From positions 1-31,801 of IMG/VR virus record IMGVR_UViG_3300010373_000104: 31,801 nucleotides of DNA, one strand, 5' to 3'. This DNA is from a virus. Under the pieces are notes generated by a model. It saw nothing but the letters and a program-made list of their open reading frames with translations, searched no databases and was not told where the DNA came from. Each line of letters begins with the position of its first letter. The first letter of the stretch is position 1. Positions 2,258-20,664 of the stretch are shown here, piece after piece. A program made the translations under genes and the position numbers.

Positions 2258-3127
2258 TTAATTATAAACTATACGTCCCTCTTTGTCAATCTCAGTGACA
2301 TCAGGCTTACGTACTACCTTGGTTAGATATCTGGGTCCATCAGAGTAAAGGAACGTTCGTAAATTCGGAAAGCAGCAATGTTTATAGGCCGAATATGAGG
2401 CTTTAACGTCAAGACGTATATTTCCCGCTTTTCCATCTTCAATAGTTCTGCATTGGCAAGGCGGACATTGATCCGAAGCAACAATTTCTTTGCTACTTCT
2501 AATTCTCTCTCTAATTCGATCAGGTCTGATCCTGTGCTCATAGAGAAACATCCTCCCTAGTTGTTTATCAATAGCTAAGATATAACCTTTATCTTTCACC
2601 CTAACGAGAGGGTCGTCAGCAGATGCCACCACATAGCCGTCCAACTGATCCAGATAGCCAAAGCTATCGTCTTGGACAATGGAGCCATCTTTGAACTTAG
2701 CAAAACTCCTGCTACTACATGACTTAACATCAACGATGCACCCATCAATGACACAGTCTCGATGACCTTTGATACCATCGCAGACCAGTTCATCTTGCTC
2801 TCCCGTGACTTCGTGCCCTGCAGCCTTAGCTAGACATATAGCTAGGGCTTCCAGTATATGGCCAAAAGCGTACTTAATCTTTGCCCACGGTGGAATGTCC
2901 TCTGCCATTTCTGGGTGGTGGATTGAGTACCACAATGCCTTCGGACATATTGGACCCATCTTCGACAAGCGTAGTGTAGGCTTATCAGGTTGGGAGGCAC
3001 GTGAGAAATGTTGTTGGAGACGAACTCCAATACTTTGGGACAGCTCTGATGCAAGGCGTTCATCTAACCACTCCTCCTTAGAGTTGAGTAGTTGATATAT
3101 GTCTGGGATTAGATCGTGTATATTCAC
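2258..3127 (-). CDS. PD-(D/E)XK exonuclease, Cas4/RecB-like
   Basis: A 289-residue nuclease with the motif order of the RecB/Cas4 class: GHILEA (His90, Glu93), GHRD (Asp124), IVDVKS (Asp133, Lys135), then QLDGY (Gln161, Tyr165), the QxxxY motif. One Cys lies early in ICPKALWYS (Cys61); five more cluster near the C-terminus (CPPCQC and HCC). That arrangement recalls the iron-sulfur-binding Cys of Cas4 and AddB, although the spacing is not identical. In T7-like phages such exonucleases digest host DNA or process concatemers. The start is GTG, directly preceded by an in-frame stop, with no clear ribosome site; coupling to the 91-residue gene is likely. Confidence 0.8.
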   Translation of the reverse strand: MNIHDLIPDIYQLLNSKEEWLDERLASELSQSIGVRLQQHFSRASQPDKPTLRLSKMGPICPKALWYSIHHPEMAEDIPPWAKIKYAFGHILEALAICLAKAAGHEVTGEQDELVCDGIKGHRDCVIDGCIVDVKSCSSRSFAKFKDGSIVQDDSFGYLDQLDGYVVASADDPLVRVKDKGYILAIDKQLGRMFLYEHRIRPDRIRERIRSSKEIVASDQCPPCQCRTIEDGKAGNIRLDVKASYSAYKHCCFPNLRTFLYSDGPRYLTKVVRKPDVTEIDKEGRIVYN

Positions 3128-3128
3128 A

Positions 3129-3404
3129 TTAGTTTAGAGACGCTTTAACAGCATGCCACATCAGAGCCATACATATCAAATACAGCGGTCCTGTAATAGG
3201 CATTGTTACTAGAAGCAGTAGAGCTACCTGATTAACTTGCTTCAAGGTAATACTACTAACTTCTTTCTTCTTCTCTCCTTCTTTCTTCTTGGCTTGTTCT
3301 TTATTGAGGAATTTCTCGAACTTACGTAACATCCTCAGAGGATCTTGTTCTTTGTGTTCTTGTTGAGGGTACGGATATGGGTACCCCATCATCCAGGGAA
3401 ACAT
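3129..3404 (-). CDS. Small membrane protein, charged N-terminus
   Basis: A 91-residue protein with a Pro/Tyr-rich first 14 residues, a highly charged Lys/Glu middle (20-50), and a hydrophobic C-terminal region (about 57-85) long enough for one or two membrane passes. A very strong AGGAGGGGGAG site lies upstream. It is the first gene after the candidate giant RNA and its terminator, and its stop is two bases before the exonuclease start. The topology would fit an inner-membrane accessory or holin-like protein; no family is recognised. Confidence 0.75.
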   Translation of the reverse strand: MFPWMMGYPYPYPQQEHKEQDPLRMLRKFEKFLNKEQAKKKEGEKKKEVSSITLKQVNQVALLLLVTMPITGPLYLICMALMWHAVKASLN

Positions 3405-3426
3405 CTCCCCCTCCTATAATGATTTC

Positions 3427-3472
3427 TAAAAATTGATTAAACTGGGGCAGGTTCTTGTTCAGACCTTGCCCC
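3427..3472 (-). terminator. Terminator ending the giant RNA candidate
   Basis: On the minus strand, GGGGC-A-AGGT pairs with ACCT-GCCCC across a 10-base loop, followed by AGTTTAATCAATTTTT. The T-rich tail is present only in the leftward direction, which fixes the strand of the preceding non-coding transcript. Its U-tract is interrupted, so termination may be partial, letting transcription continue into the 91-residue gene. Confidence 0.7.
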
Positions 3473-4907
3473 ATAACTCTTAAGGTGGTCTCGGTAGTCT
3501 ATGGAACGAAGAGCGCATGCTTGTTTCTCCTTTCCAACAGAGACCCATGTTATGGGCTAATACGAACTGACCTCTACAAGGATATCTCTTTCACGTGCTA
3601 TGCGCTATCCGTGTAACTGGACCACTTGCACAGATTACTTGAGTAATCTCCGTGTCGATCATTCCTTGCTTCATCAGCTGAGGACGATCTATGTAGAGCG
3701 TTCTAATGCCTGACCTGAGTATAGGAGCTATGTCTCCTTCCAACAGTAGAGGCAGGGATGGACAGATTCCATTTGCACTCTCTAACAGGACTTCTCGCCT
3801 CGCCTTATGGAACTTCGTACCGGCTATGCTAGTACTCGGAGCCTAGTATTATGCTCTTTGCAGGAGCAACCATGACTAGAGGAGTTATCCCAATTCAAGA
3901 TACTGTGGGCAGCATCTCATACCAACGGATATCCCCTATAAGGATCTAGGGCTTTCCTTCACATAGCGTCAGGTATTCTCCAATCAGGAAGCTCTTTGGA
4001 CATTTCAATCTGTTTAGTCCTAGGGCTTAGCTTCACCCCGAAGGGTCTTCGTCTTCTCCCCAACGAGGAGTTGACGGGACGGTACGATTGGTACCCTACT
4101 CGTTTAGCCTCTTCCTTCCACTTGGCTCTGCACTTGTCCGGTGCTGTCGGTATAGAGGGGACACGCTCTATACTAAGAAGCTACACGCGTAATGCTCTAG
4201 AGACGATTAGATCTGACGGAGAGCCAGACCGGCCCTAGCGTCTCATAGCATCTTCGCACCCCCGGTTAACAGCCGGTCGCTGGGATGTTGTCGATAGACC
4301 TTTGTCTAACCAATTAGGGTTAGAGCGGACTATACGTCTGTCAACGGAGATCTATCTCTGAGAACGCGGAACCCTTTTGTGCTGTTTTATCCTCCGTAGT
4401 CACCTACGGGTGGCAAAATAGACTTCGTAGAGTTCCACCCTTGGACGGTACCTATAGGTGTAATCTATAGATATTGCAAGGAACTCATAGGTCTCTGGCA
4501 TTGCCTTACCAGCTAGTGCAGGACGCCAACCCAGCTATCTCGCAGATAGTTACCCAAGTTTATAGTTGGACTCGAACCAACATCTACGGATATTCAACCA
4601 CTACATCCTAGACCTATAGCATCCGGCTATAGATCCTAAGGCTCAGAGATTACCTCTGATGTGGATCTAACGGCGATTTGAAACTAGCTAAGTGAAACTT
4701 CGTTTCACGCGAAGCGAAGCTTCTAAAAGAATTAATGGGAGGGAGACTCTTTCCTAGTCTCCAGCACAGGTAGCGATGGATTGTTCTGTAATCCAGTGCA
4801 CTGCTGTTACCCTTTTCAAAGTACCGACATAACCGGCCAGCATACGTTATCCCCTCGCTCAGAGGATTATTCCGTCACTCCCCATTCTCAACAGCTTATT
4901 GAGAATG
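3444..4907 (-). ncRNA. Candidate giant structured non-coding RNA (about 1.46 kb)
   Basis: No convincing protein frame exists on either strand between 3405 and 4921, yet the minus strand folds by eye into many perfect local hairpins. Examples: CATTCTCAA/TTGAGAATG at 4883-4907, GGAGACT/AGTCTCC at 4742-4762, GTGAAAC/GTTTCAC near 4692, a 10-bp GATCTATAGC/GCTATAGGTC stem at 4609-4633, CCGTAG-GTGA-CTACGG (GNRA loop) at 4394-4409, TCTAACC/GGTTAGA at 4304-4323, TATAGAG/CTCTATA at 4151-4172, ACCC-TTCG-GGGT (UUCG loop) near 4040, and AGATTAC-TCAA-GTAATCT at 3632-3649. It ends in a terminator. Giant ornate RNAs of the GOLLD and ROOL classes are known from phages, often beside tRNAs, but I cannot assign a class. 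The 5' end is approximate; it may be cut from the operon transcript. Confidence 0.65.
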
Positions 4908-4921
4908 TTTAAATTAATTAA

Positions 4922-5407
4922 TTACCAAGCAGGCATATCAGGTTGTTTATCAAAACCAGATACTCGATCTCTTTCCCTAGGATCAGGACTCTCAGCTGGG
5001 TTCATAGGAACTAGATTATAAATCTTCAATCCTGAGAATCGTGCAGCTTTATATCTACCTCCACCTGGAGTAGGTCCCGAGTATGTTTCGAGCTTAACCC
5101 CCACATCTGAGCCTGGACCGATGTTACCGTCAAAGGCGTGCCCCTCTTTGTCGATGACTGAGGGAGGTCCCAAGGCAGACTTGTATCCGTCTTTCCTCTT
5201 GATCTCAGGCGGTCTAGAAAACGAGATATAATACCCATCTTCATCCTTCTTAAGTTCATTCTTAATCCCCTCTTCGATTAACTTATTAACCTTCTGAAGA
5301 GACGGAGCATCTGGATATAGAGTTATGCCCCACTTATTAAACTTACCTAGGTGTTTAGTATTACACCACTTAACTTTGCCTTGTAGAAATTCTTCTTTAT
5401 TAGGCAT
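4922..5407 (-). CDS. Phage single-stranded DNA-binding protein
   Basis: A 161-residue protein with the layout of phage OB-fold SSBs. An N-terminal GKVKW strand and a Tyr/Phe-rich YYISFSRPPE segment precede the central signature: DGNIGPGSDVGVKLETYS, then GGGRYKAARFSGLKIYNLVP. The C-terminus is charged and ends in an aromatic residue (Trp), as in T7 gp2.5, whose acidic tail with a final Phe contacts the polymerase and helicase. Here the tail is less acidic. It sits directly downstream of the polymerase gene and upstream of the giant RNA. The ATG overlaps the stop of the 52-residue gene. Confidence 0.8.
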   Translation of the reverse strand: MPNKEEFLQGKVKWCNTKHLGKFNKWGITLYPDAPSLQKVNKLIEEGIKNELKKDEDGYYISFSRPPEIKRKDGYKSALGPPSVIDKEGHAFDGNIGPGSDVGVKLETYSGPTPGGGRYKAARFSGLKIYNLVPMNPAESPDPRERDRVSGFDKQPDMPAW

Positions 5408-10609: not shown

Positions 10610-12119
10610 GACTTCCCTCTTCGTTTAGCATATAGGTGGTTTCATCGAACACGATGCTACCAGCAGCACCAGTAGCAGAACAGAAGCGATTATACGGAAT
10701 GCTAAGTTTAATCGTCCTCCTTTCCTTGTCATCCACGCACATCGTGTCACGATCAGCGTGAATAGTAATATCAGCCAACTTAGTGAGGTAATGTGAACCG
10801 CGAGACTGTCCCAAGTCGTTAACATGAGTCACCATGATTAGAGCGAAGTTAAGCTCCTTGACCATCATTTCGAGTCTGGATGCAAGATACTCCAGAGCAC
10901 GTCTTTCATCCCTTTCCCCTGCGAGCCCCGTAACCGCCATAGAAATATGGTCAAACAGAATATAACGACAGTTGCAGGCAGTAACGAGAAACCTAATAGT
11001 ATCCAGAATAACGTCTGGATCAGAAGTACCGAAATGATTGTAGATGTACAGACGGTCGTCACGGCCAACGACTTCTCGAAGCGCCGTGAGAACCTCCTCA
11101 TCATCAACACCAGAGTCAGGAAGGTGCGCTGGTTTCCCGATCTCCAATCCTGCGATAGATTGAAGATGTCTCTGTCTTGGTTCTTCGATGTAGATTGCTC
11201 CGACATTGGCGTCTGTCTCCTTCAAGAGCTGATGTTCGATAGCATGCATTATCGCAGTCTTACCTACCTTTTCAGGTGCTTTAAGCAAGACTGTCTCACC
11301 AGTCCTAATCCCATACGTCATCTTAGTTAACGTAGGGAAAGGATACGGAACTCCTTTAGGCTTCTCTTCACTAAGAACCTTCTCAAAATCAGAGAACGAA
11401 GAAATTATAGAAGACGGGAGATAGTGTTTAGCGTTGTAGAATAGATTAAGTAACTCGTCTCCTTCACCGTGTTGCAGGTATTCGTTAGCATCTTTTCGAT
11501 TGGAATACTTGAGATGGTAGAGTTTATTGTAGTCAAATAGTCTAGCGACTGCTGCTGTAGCTGCTTCGCCTGCGGGGTCGTTGTCAAATCCGAGATATAT
11601 TTTCTCGTAATCGTTAAGTGAGGATCGCACTGCGCTAACATCATTAGCAGCAGAAGCAGCACTACGCACCGAAACACAAGGTATACGAAGGATTTGATAG
11701 AGTGAAAGAGCATCTAGTTCTCCCTCAGTTATAACAATGCTCTTGTGAGCACCAGCAGCAAACTTATCTAATCCAAATACACCAGCTTTACTCTCACCCT
11801 CCCACCTAAAGTCTTTCTTATCTAGTGATCGTATTTTGATACCAGAAACGTAAGGAAACCGAAGTTCGCGAGGTTTACCGCTAGGGTCCACCACAGTAAG
11901 TACATCGTATTGTCTACACGTTTCTCTAGTAATTCCACGTATTCCCAAATATTCCAAGGTACAATCCTCTGCATTAGCAATCTCCTTAGGAGGTTTAAAA
12001 TACTTACATGAAAAGCAATAACCATGTCCATCCTCGTACAGACAATAGGCATCTGAACTAGGACATTGAGGACATGGAATATGTTTCTCGATTATGATCT
12101 TATTAGGCGTTAGTTCCAT
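10569..12119 (-). CDS. Bifunctional primase-helicase (T7 gp4 / Twinkle type)
   Basis: A 516-residue protein. An N-terminal zinc-binding domain has CPQC (Cys16, Cys19) and CFSC (Cys35, Cys38). The TOPRIM core has TEGELDALSLY (Glu132) and GFDNDPAGEAA (Asp179, Asp181). The RecA-like helicase domain has the Walker A loop APEKVGKTAI (281-290), YIEEP (310-314), YILFDH (Walker B, Asp390) and IMVTH (428-432). It unwinds DNA 5' to 3' as a ring and makes RNA primers for the polymerase encoded further down the operon. The Gly-Lys-Thr loop starts with Ala-Pro-Glu instead of the common Ala/Gly-Ser-Gly, a modest variation. Its start lies inside the preceding gene. Confidence 0.93.
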   Translation of the reverse strand: MELTPNKIIIEKHIPCPQCPSSDAYCLYEDGHGYCFSCKYFKPPKEIANAEDCTLEYLGIRGITRETCRQYDVLTVVDPSGKPRELRFPYVSGIKIRSLDKKDFRWEGESKAGVFGLDKFAAGAHKSIVITEGELDALSLYQILRIPCVSVRSAASAANDVSAVRSSLNDYEKIYLGFDNDPAGEAATAAVARLFDYNKLYHLKYSNRKDANEYLQHGEGDELLNLFYNAKHYLPSSIISSFSDFEKVLSEEKPKGVPYPFPTLTKMTYGIRTGETVLLKAPEKVGKTAIMHAIEHQLLKETDANVGAIYIEEPRQRHLQSIAGLEIGKPAHLPDSGVDDEEVLTALREVVGRDDRLYIYNHFGTSDPDVILDTIRFLVTACNCRYILFDHISMAVTGLAGERDERRALEYLASRLEMMVKELNFALIMVTHVNDLGQSRGSHYLTKLADITIHADRDTMCVDDKERRTIKLSIPYNRFCSATGAAGSIVFDETTYMLNEEGSHDGHNNTVSEEGW

Positions 12120-19183: not shown

Positions 19184-19185
19184 CT

Positions 19186-19410
19186 GCTAAGCACTAACTA
19201 GAAACCCTAAGCACTCTAATCAGTGCTTAGGGTTTTTTTATTGCTTAATAGTCTAGTAATTCTATAGATTATATATAATAGCTAAGCATGATCTTAGCAT
19301 GATTAGAGTGCTACACATCCTAGCCTTAGGTTCTTAATGCATCTTTAGTCATAAGTTATAGCTAAGGGTGCTAAGCATACCCTTAGCATTATAGTATAGC
19401 TTAGATATAG
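19186..19410. repeat. Cluster of CTAAGCA / TGCTTAG words and hairpins
   Basis: The word CTAAGCA or its complement, exact or with one change, occurs about eight times, including the terminator stem. Two perfect hairpins are built from it: GCTAAG/CTTAGC at 19281-19298 and GCTAAGGGT/ACCCTTAGC at 19361-19387, whose loop is itself GCTAAGCAT. The flanks are AT-rich (TTATATATAATA). This looks like iterons or a regulator-binding array. Confidence 0.5.
19202..19239 (+). terminator. Strong rightward Rho-independent terminator
   Basis: AAACCCTAAGCACT pairs perfectly with AGTGCTTAGGGTTT (14 bp) across a 6-base loop, followed by a T-run to 19239. It closes the early unit that ends at 19183. The stem contains the CTAAGCA word repeated nearby. 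Confidence 0.95.
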
Positions 19411-19423
19411 AAATGAAGCCTTG

Positions 19424-19498
19424 GCTATATTCGACCCGGCCATGCACCCCATGCAGGGGGTTAGGACCCCCCAATCGACGCACTGAACTACACCTCAA
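19424..19498 (-). pseudogene. Degenerate tRNA-like sequence, Arg(CCU)-type anticodon loop
   Basis: Minus strand: GGTGTAGTTCAGTG resembles a tRNA 5' end with D-arm. It is followed by GGGGG-GTCCTAA-CCCCC, a perfect 5-bp anticodon arm whose loop has U33 and anticodon CCU, and later by GGGTCGAATAT, close to a T-loop. The order is right, but the D-stem, T-stem and acceptor do not pair. It is best read as a relic or mimic, not a working tRNA. Confidence 0.35.
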
Positions 19499-19518
19499 AA
19501 ATATCGAGGAGAAATTTT

Positions 19519-19698
19519 TCAATATGGTAATTGCCTTATCTTCATATCGTAATCATCAAATACAATGTCATGGTCTTGCATAACTCCTAGTTCATATCCT
19601 TTGGGAGCCACAACTTCCCACCAGATAGTCTGGGGATATGGTTTCTCTGGATTTTTCCAATAATCTGGATTTTTGTTATTTATTAGCTTATTTCTCAT
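19519..19698 (-). CDS. Hypothetical 59-residue protein
   Basis: A leftward microgene with a clear GGAG site five bases before its ATG. The product contains NPDYWKNPEKPYPQTIWWEV and an acidic Asp/Tyr-rich C-terminal third. It lies opposite to the late operon, in the spacer between early and late units. Not recognised. Confidence 0.65.
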   Translation of the reverse strand: MRNKLINNKNPDYWKNPEKPYPQTIWWEVVAPKGYELGVMQDHDIVFDDYDMKIRQLPY

Positions 19699-19826
19699 TT
19701 ATTCTCCATAAATGTTCATTTAAAGGGCTATTTTCCTTTCCATTAGGTATAGGTACCTAAAATATATTTAAACGCATGTACGGGCTTCTAATGGCGTTTA
19801 TTGGCCATTTTAAAAGATATCCTCGA

Positions 19827-19946
19827 TCATGTTATATCCATTCCATTGAAATAGGTATTATATATTCTCTTAGCCCATAGCTCATCTGGTATCTCTACCC
19901 AAGATCTACCTAAAGAATCTATTATTGTCTTGATATTACTTGACAT
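19827..19946 (-). CDS. Hypothetical 39-residue protein antisense to the late promoter
   Basis: A leftward frame with AGAAAG upstream of ATG. The product (starts MSSNIKTIIDSLGRSW, then VEIPDELWAKRIYN) is protein-like. Its start codon overlaps the -35 element of the rightward late promoter, so transcription of one may disturb the other. Function unknown. Confidence 0.55.
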   Translation of the reverse strand: MSSNIKTIIDSLGRSWVEIPDELWAKRIYNTYFNGMDIT

Positions 19947-19968
19947 TAGCTTTCTAATCCTATATAAT
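19940..19968 (+). promoter_or_regulatory. Perfect consensus sigma-70 promoter for the late operon
   Basis: TTGACA (19940-19945), exactly 17 bases, TATAAT (19963-19968): full consensus in both hexamers with optimal spacing. Transcription would start near 19975, about 20 bases before the first late gene. Confidence 0.85.
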
Positions 19969-19996
19969 AGCTGTCCTATATTCTTATGTAGGTTCT

Positions 19997-20314
19997 ATGA
20001 TTTATAACTTAATATCTAGATATTATAAATATTATCTAATAGCAATCTTTAGTATAGCTATTCTTAGTCTTCTGTCAAGAGTTTCTTTTGCTCATGATTG
20101 GTATACTGGCACTGGATGTTGTGGTAACTTCCATTGTCATCCTATAGATTCTTGCTCAGAGATTACTAAGGATGCTCAAGGTAATCTCCATTGGCATCAG
20201 TATATCTTTACTCCATTACAAGAGAAACCATCACAAGACAGTAATTGCCACGTGTGTACCTATGGAATCAAACCGGACGATACTTTCTGTATCTTTACTC
20301 AACAGAGTAGCTAA
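19997..20314 (+). CDS. Exported Cys-rich protein, alphaproteobacterial-type family
   Basis: 105 residues with an N-terminal signal peptide (hydrophobic about 13-27, likely cleavage after SFA at 32). The mature part begins HDWYTGTGCCG and continues with CHPIDSC, GNLHWHQY, CHVCTYG and DDTFCIF. Small secreted proteins beginning AH(S/D)WY with a CC pair, a W-H element and a final C-F motif are common in Rhizobiales genomes and their phages; their function is not known. First gene after the consensus promoter; its stop overlaps the first zinc-ribbon gene. Confidence 0.75.
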   Translation: MIYNLISRYYKYYLIAIFSIAILSLLSRVSFAHDWYTGTGCCGNFHCHPIDSCSEITKDAQGNLHWHQYIFTPLQEKPSQDSNCHVCTYGIKPDDTFCIFTQQSS

Positions 20315-20409
20315 TGTCAGAGAAACCTAAATATTATATCTGTGATAACTGTGGTAGACGATGGCCTGTACACTACTGTTCTCAATGTGGAGTATTTATA
20401 TTACGATGA
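20314..20409 (+). CDS. Zinc-ribbon microprotein 1 (31 residues)
   Basis: Starts in a TAATG overlap with the exported protein. It contains CDNCG, eight residues, then CSQCG: two CxxC knuckles as in a minimal zinc ribbon. It is the first of five consecutive genes of the same design, each coupled to the next by a stop/start overlap and each in a new frame. Function unknown. Confidence 0.75.
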   Translation: MSEKPKYYICDNCGRRWPVHYCSQCGVFILR

Positions 20410-20495
20410 CTACCTGGACTTGCCCTAACTGTGGGTTTGAGAACCAAGAGACAACTAGATGCATTAGATGCAACTGGGGTACCTGGCCGTTATGA
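20406..20495 (+). CDS. Zinc-ribbon microprotein 2 (29 residues)
   Basis: ATGA overlap with gene 1. It has WTCPNCGFEN and CIRCNWG. The CPNCGFEN start resembles the N-terminal zinc ribbon of many bacterial double-zinc-ribbon proteins, here standing alone. Confidence 0.75.
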   Translation: MTTWTCPNCGFENQETTRCIRCNWGTWPL

Positions 20496-20575
20496 GACTA
20501 TTTCATATCTGTCCTAAGTGTGGCTTTGAACATAGACTAATGACTAGTAAATGCAAAGCATGTGGATTTGAATGA
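20492..20575 (+). CDS. Zinc-ribbon microprotein 3 (27 residues)
   Basis: ATGA overlap with gene 2. It has CPKCGFEH and CKACGFE, with a basic linker between. The shortest member; it shares the CGFE words with gene 2, which points to duplication. Confidence 0.75.
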   Translation: MRLFHICPKCGFEHRLMTSKCKACGFE

Positions 20576-20664
20576 TGTGGGTATGTAAACAATGCCACCG
20601 TCTTAACACAGGTACTAACAAATACTGTGGTGGATGTGGTTGGCCTAAGGATGCTTTATCCTAA
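20572..20664 (+). CDS. Zinc-ribbon microprotein 4 (30 residues)
   Basis: Tandem ATGATG, the first overlapping the stop of gene 3. It has WVCKQCHRLN and CGGCGWP, with the same spacing class as its neighbours. The residue after the second Cys is His, a possible extra ligand. Confidence 0.75.
   Translation: MMWVCKQCHRLNTGTNKYCGGCGWPKDALS

Follow-up and report, generated by a model that had tools for sequence, protein, structure and literature searches.

The window (the whole stretch of viral DNA analysed, 31,801 nt) contains on its minus strand a long interval without any plausible gene, bounded by two short protein-coding genes. Upstream lies a gene for a protein of 161 aa (4922–5407, minus strand), which shows 35–48% identity in 20 relatives. 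Searches of Pfam and PHROGs gave no match for it, so that the name 'SSB' reflects only its position and the call made in a preliminary description of this DNA; it is referred to here as the SSB-position gene. On the other side is a small membrane-type ORF of 91 aa (3129–3404, minus strand), Lys-rich and with a hydrophobic C-terminal part, which is 44% identical to that of contig L017 and has no match to a Pfam or PHROGs family. It is followed by a gene for a Cas4-domain exonuclease (2258–3127, minus strand; phrog_1990, E 3e-23; 57–67% identity in relatives), the downstream limit of the conserved interval. The boundaries given in the preliminary description are confirmed. The candidate giant structured RNA region itself spans 3519–4905 (1,387 nt, minus strand), with its putative 5' end at 4905 and its approximate 3' limit near 3519, and each of its minus-strand frames is broken by 25–30 stops. 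Over 3444–4907 the minus strand is without an ORF of at least 60 aa, and the plus strand holds one unsupported ORF of 80 aa. The interval had been described as gene-free, which holds for minus-strand ORFs of that size, but it is not wholly non-coding, since an ORF of 12 codons is found at 3480–3518. It was an overstatement that every other part of the window is packed with genes: positions 19184–19996 (0.8 kb, G+C 0.36) likewise lack ORFs of at least 60 aa. Elsewhere in the window (20314–20664, plus strand) there is a run of tiny ORFs of ∼30–44 aa, each with paired CxxC zinc-ribbon-like motifs. A blastn search of the window interval against phage records found nothing.

Relatives were gathered from IMG/VR by alignment of the polymerase and the Cas4-like protein. 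This gave about 100 loci, reduced to 51 distinct intervals (the window and 50 further contigs, all metagenomic) once near-duplicates were removed. Wherever the contig reaches far enough, gene order is kept: DNA polymerase, SSB-position gene, gene-free stretch, small ORF and Cas4-like nuclease. In the 47 complete intervals the gene-free stretch, measured from the stop of the SSB-position gene to a conserved mini-ORF (see below), is 1.08–3.7 kb long (median 1.61 kb), and in all but five the longest open frame is no longer than in shuffled sequence (42/47). Outgroups with ∼40% identical Cas4 mostly have a gap of 0–240 nt between the SSB-position gene and Cas4, and no gap separates the two genes in CRP-4, a cultured Roseobacter phage (Zobellviridae, Cobavirinae); for these reasons the gene-free stretch appears to have been inserted in a single lineage. 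Sub-clades can hardly be aligned with one another in the middle of the RNA, so that they may not all share one function. No description of this RNA class was found in the open-licence literature.

The hairpins to which the preliminary description drew attention are present on the minus strand, including a GNRA hairpin (CCGTAG-GTGA-CTACGG, 4394–4409), which abuts the conserved core described below, and a UUCG hairpin (ACCC-TTCG-GGGT, 4035–4046). Their density does not exceed background, contrary to what was supposed. Relative to dinucleotide shuffles, the interval has a mean folding z of −1.47 on the minus and −1.61 on the plus strand, against −1.56 in coding DNA from the window; as the interval thus matches coding DNA, the counting of hairpins is no evidence. 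Covariation in homologues, the refutation test that the preliminary description had set itself, was passed for the relatives. Alignments were made within four-member sub-clades (55–79% identity) and their RNAalifold consensus energies compared with column shuffles. Over most of the non-coding sequence the consensus energies are low, with z down to −9, and segments of 200 nt contain as many as 25 compensated pairs (2–6 in shuffles); covariation is strong across more than 1 kb; in sub-clade A the consensus-fold signal is gone in the downstream coding DNA. In one alignment of four sequences (A5), 34 of 78 pairs are two-sidedly compensated, far above both the shuffled (15.0 ± 2.6; 0/500) and the slid (1–8) controls. 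The proportion of its cells that are paired, 93.5%, is a favoured figure, as this alignment was itself the source of the predicted structure. Consensus folds are predicted on the opposite strand too, and are on average stronger on the transcribed strand. An alignment of the window with L017 (52% identity, misaligned, mean z ∼ −0.9) was too poor to show covariation and was set aside. The two share a segment with 85% identity over 39 nt, containing the hairpin GGACUAAACAGAUUGAAAUGUCC (3998–4020, minus strand), the stem of which has undergone a compensatory change (GGAC/GTCC in the window against GGGC/GCCC in L017). Large size and covariation-backed structure, which characterize giant ornate RNAs as a kind, are thus found directly in the relatives, and in the window via homology.

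A conserved core, R1 (GGAGGMUAAAACA ... CUCCGKUGACAGACG..AGUC), lies at 4322–4407 (minus strand). Its covariance model was built from six relatives with the window left out, and detects the window at 4407–4322 with 29.7 bits (E 5.4e-7 in 710 kb, E-values of such models being rough). The recurrent motif pair is GGAGGCUAAAACA ... CUCCGGUGRC-AGACG..GAUCA-GYC; each of the R1 motifs has a single occurrence in the window (31.8 kb), and the two are in order and 33 nt apart. At E up to 1 the model finds 25 loci. In the 22 relatives that were checked the match lies inside the interval and on the same strand, and only one locus beyond the clade is matched, marginally (L070, E 0.38). Among IMG/VR contigs, 17 contain the exact core, and the eight of these that were new to the set all carry relatives of the Cas4-like, SSB-position or polymerase genes. 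Around the core there is a predicted three-way junction (4293–4356, minus strand) with an outer helix GATAGATCT/AGGTCTATC (4356–4348 with 4301–4293) that encloses the hairpin TCTAACC-CTAATT-GGTTAGA (4324–4305, minus strand). In L018, L060, L051, L017 and the window the outer helix stands at a fixed register beside the core motif (Fisher p 0.0007 at that register, out of ten offsets tried; offsets 4–7 are not significant). A hairpin around GGAGGCUAAAACA with free offsets reached p 0.015 only, and was dropped as main evidence.

At gathering scores, Rfam has no match in the window. With a relaxed threshold, the 5' 174 nt of the RNA (4732–4905, minus strand) were recognized as a manA-like domain (RF01745, model positions 1–192), at 53.0 bits (E 3.2e-12; gathering score 55.2) and with part of the multistem region, or one helix, missing. 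The hairpin at 4883–4905 corresponds to helix P1 of this RNA. A second manA-like RNA stands at the head of the interval in L061 (3122–3279; cmscan, 33.4 bits, E 6e-5), so that the domain occurs in two of the 51 members. The manA RNA is a proposed riboswitch type (PMC2864571). Here it resembles that RNA in matching the full-length model, and differs in scoring 2 bits below the gathering score and in being continuous with a giant RNA rather than forming a short leader of a metabolic gene. Nor does it lie in the 5' UTR of a gene for metabolism or photosynthesis, the next ORFs being the mini-ORF, the membrane-type ORF and the Cas4-like nuclease. The sequence matches suggest that larger phage RNAs can include manA as one of their domains. 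An orphan riboswitch candidate is thereby linked to a larger RNA.

The relatives also contain tRNA-like modules. A search for T-arms, defined as an exact 5-bp stem closing a TTCRANN loop, found 63 on the transcribed strand and none on the other (51 intervals, 117 kb), compared with seven in 500 kb of flanking DNA. The stem sequences differ almost everywhere while the pairing is perfect, hence it is the pairing, and not the sequence, that is kept. About a dozen of the 51 intervals lack a perfect T-arm; the window has a single one, GTTGG-TTCGAGT-CCAAC (4565–4581, minus strand), with a perfect 5-bp stem and a canonical loop. In many relatives the T-arm is followed by a hairpin of 4–7 bp (a capped acceptor) and then by a D-arm, TGGCGAAA-GGYARACGC. 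Bacterial Y RNAs share this order, which is that of a tRNA after circular permutation. A covariance model (R2) built from ten phage T-arm/acceptor/D-arm modules scores within each of the three YrlA matches that Rfam gives in L206 and L241; at the window's T-arm its match is weak (17.6 bits, E 0.09), only the T-arm being clear there. The idea that the T-arm/D-arm pattern is private to these phages was rejected, as the permuted module is widespread in scans of IMG/VR and GTDB, where neighbouring copies are named YrlA by Rfam. The likeness to YrlA (RF02553) extends to the order of T-arm, capped acceptor hairpin and D-arm in the relatives. In contrast to YrlA, the permuted module is here a small part of a far larger RNA, and Rfam has no YrlA match in the intervals. 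A regular-expression scan, which a divergent stem could escape, found no Ro-binding stem in the 51 intervals, and none of 23 of these phage records encodes a TROVE/Ro60 (Rsr) protein (control positive).

Neither ARAGORN nor Rfam finds a canonical tRNA in the window. Default ARAGORN calls one intron-free tRNA in the 51 intervals, a canonical tRNA-Ile (GAT) at 11425–11496 of L006, within the interval, as in some GOLLD RNAs, which carry tRNAs; its tmRNA mode finds no tmRNA in any of them. Calls at lowered thresholds numbered dozens and were discarded as meaningless. A hairpin with the invariant loop CUCAUUA, which resembles an anticodon loop (CAU), has a covarying 5-bp stem (e.g. L036 offset 256, L048 offset 386, L033 offset 1254); the loop core was seen in 15 of the 51 intervals, and not in the window. 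A near-perfect long inverted repeat at 4955–5054 of L016 scored against plant microRNA models, and is probably just a strong hairpin.

That a structured RNA is read from the minus strand of the window is strongly supported by comparison with the relatives (conserved position, covariation, strand-specific T-arms and R1). The proposal of a giant structured RNA on this strand thus stands on grounds other than the hairpin argument first given for it. By its R1 match, its one T-arm and its near-threshold manA 5' end, the window is placed in the class.

The preliminary description overlooked a feature close to where the gene-free stretch ends on its 3' side, a mini-ORF of 12 codons (MRSSFHRLPRPP; 3480–3518, minus strand) that ends in Pro-Pro-stop and is preceded by a Shine-Dalgarno sequence, AAAGGAG (3527–3533, minus strand). 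An ORF of this type, with Shine-Dalgarno and Pro-Pro-stop, occurs at the corresponding position in all 50 evaluable intervals, against 1/50 on the reverse strand and 1.45/50 in shuffles (mononucleotide for some controls, including these counts, the hairpin z-scores past the stop and the open-frame lengths), while the next commonest terminal dipeptide is seen in eight. Sequence conservation is confined to the Pro-Pro-stop end, and the proline codons vary at their third base, which indicates that selection acts on the peptide. The conserved CCWCCUUAA near the 3' end was considered as an anti-Shine-Dalgarno or 16S mimic, and rejected as such, being the Pro-Pro-stop of the mini-ORF. Seven nt past this stop lies the hairpin GGGGCAAGGT..ACCTGCCCC with an AT-rich tail (3444–3472, minus strand), a candidate attenuator or terminator. 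Its folding z is −3.2; in the relatives a hairpin follows the stop at a median of 6 nt, with a mean z of −2.0. A terminator working leftward had been proposed at this end: the hairpin and its AT-rich tail are there, but a terminator scan does not list one on the minus strand. Proline pairs at the C-terminus slow termination, recruit tmRNA and provoke trans-translation, and they are rare in bacterial proteins (PMC3985003). The arrangement recalls stalling leader peptides of the TnaC type, in which a tiny ORF with its last proline next to the stop slows termination ahead of regulated genes (PMC3985003). Unlike these, with which it shares no sequence, it is located at the 3' end of a giant structured phage RNA. 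Likewise, the similarity to tmRNA, a tRNA-like part and a small ORF on one transcript, is superficial. Here, the acceptor stem is capped, so that the tRNA-like module could not be charged, and the mini-ORF has its own Shine-Dalgarno and start codon.

To our knowledge, very few giant structured RNAs have been described from bacterial or phage genomes, and none with an established function. GOLLD and ROOL are known examples of giant ornate RNAs from phages and prophages (PMC12286853). The preliminary description left it undecided between a large member of a known family and a new class; as far as Rfam shows, the RNA belongs to none of GOLLD, ROOL, OLE and HEARO. None of the four is found in the window at gathering score, nor in 3100–5000 at E up to 5, and their Rfam models have no match in the relatives. 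The new RNA is similar to GOLLD as a giant ornate RNA of phages and prophages, and some GOLLD RNAs carry tRNAs in a linker (PMC12286853). GOLLD has other conserved sequences, is located near tRNA islands rather than between the SSB-position gene and Cas4, and exceeds 800 nt, whereas the new class is usually longer and ends in the Pro-Pro-stop mini-ORF. With ROOL, which is ∼0.66 kb (PMC12286853) as against 1.1–3.7 kb here, it has in common that it is a large structured RNA of phages and prophages for which no function is known. By sequence, structure, location and mini-ORF, the class is separate from both. We know of no report of tRNA-elbow modules in ROOL. The class is larger than known giant RNAs and is found across a broad group of uncultured phages. 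It offers two clues that other giant RNAs lack, permuted tRNA-elbow modules and a conserved, putatively ribosome-stalling mini-ORF; both suggest, as a testable hypothesis, that the target lies in translation or tRNA biology.

The structure, the strand, the conserved position, the tRNA-like modules of the relatives and the universal Pro-Pro-stop ORF are all results of computation. As to what they mean, we consider it rather likely that the interval encodes a giant trans-acting RNA with a Pro-Pro-stop stalling switch at its 3' end. Such an RNA, ∼1.2–1.4 kb in this phage and 1.1–3.7 kb in relatives, would be read leftward together with the replication operon, and would join a manA-like 5' fold (in this phage), a rapidly evolving middle part that carries tRNA-elbow mimics, and the conserved core R1; at its 3' end would come the tiny translated Pro-Pro-stop ORF and then the hairpin. 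Acting in trans, it would show tRNA-like surfaces to tRNA-binding host factors, of which the ribosome, tRNA enzymes and tRNA-cutting defence nucleases are candidates. The tRNA-like domain of YrlA has been proposed as a decoy against an anticodon nuclease (PMC7790460). A ribosome paused at the Pro-Pro-stop would open or close the hairpin at 3444–3472, and depending on its state transcription would either stop, giving the 3' end of the RNA, or run on into the genes for the membrane protein, the Cas4-like nuclease and an endonuclease. Going one step further, a single transcript might pair tRNA-elbow docking with a Pro-Pro-stop ribosome trap, such that during infection the RNA would stay tethered to ribosomes or ribosome-rescue factors and act on them; this we regard as speculative and fairly unlikely.

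The main rival is a purely cis-acting role, in which the whole stretch would be a giant 5' leader controlling the membrane protein, Cas4-like nuclease and endonuclease, with no function in trans. This is possible, although we judge it distinctly less probable than the trans-acting RNA. It would explain why a Pro-Pro-stop mini-ORF with a Shine-Dalgarno is universally placed right before the hairpin and the next genes, and why a domain of a proposed riboswitch type stands at the 5' end of two members (PMC2864571), and a scan of the window found no promoter-like site within the interval. Against it, the number of tRNA-elbow mimics is variable, and they do not lie beside a gene start. The length of 1.1–3.7 kb also speaks against a leader, those known to us being far shorter. 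An element acting at the level of DNA, such as a replication origin or packaging region with hairpins in the DNA itself, would fit the location among replication genes and the predicted folds of the opposite strand, but is very improbable given the strand distribution of the T-arms (63 vs 0), the on average stronger consensus folding of the transcribed strand, the confinement of R1 matches to that strand, and the variable length and content. Slightly less credible still is an accumulation of tRNA genes in decay. It would account for the sequences that resemble T-arms, D-arms and anticodon arms, and for the one real tRNA-Ile in the L006 interval, yet the T-arm stems are perfectly paired while their sequence varies freely, the circularly permuted order with its capped acceptor would not be made by simple decay, and most intervals are without a tRNA. 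A decayed protein gene, to which the longer-than-expected open frames of five relatives might be attributed, can practically be discounted, with frames of shuffled length in 42 of 47 intervals, no protein common to the relatives, and compensatory substitutions.

Permuted tRNA-like elements also occur outside the phages studied here, in bacterial contigs (L272, L255, L262, L207, L204, L227 and L239) as well as viral ones (L106, L116, L133, L139 and L172). They often have an anticodon-arm-like hairpin, and several are situated in Flavobacteria and Rhodobacteraceae, at loci dense in tRNAs. The Rfam YrlA model does not call most of them, and permuted T-arm/acceptor/D-arm elements may represent an under-annotated RNA family.
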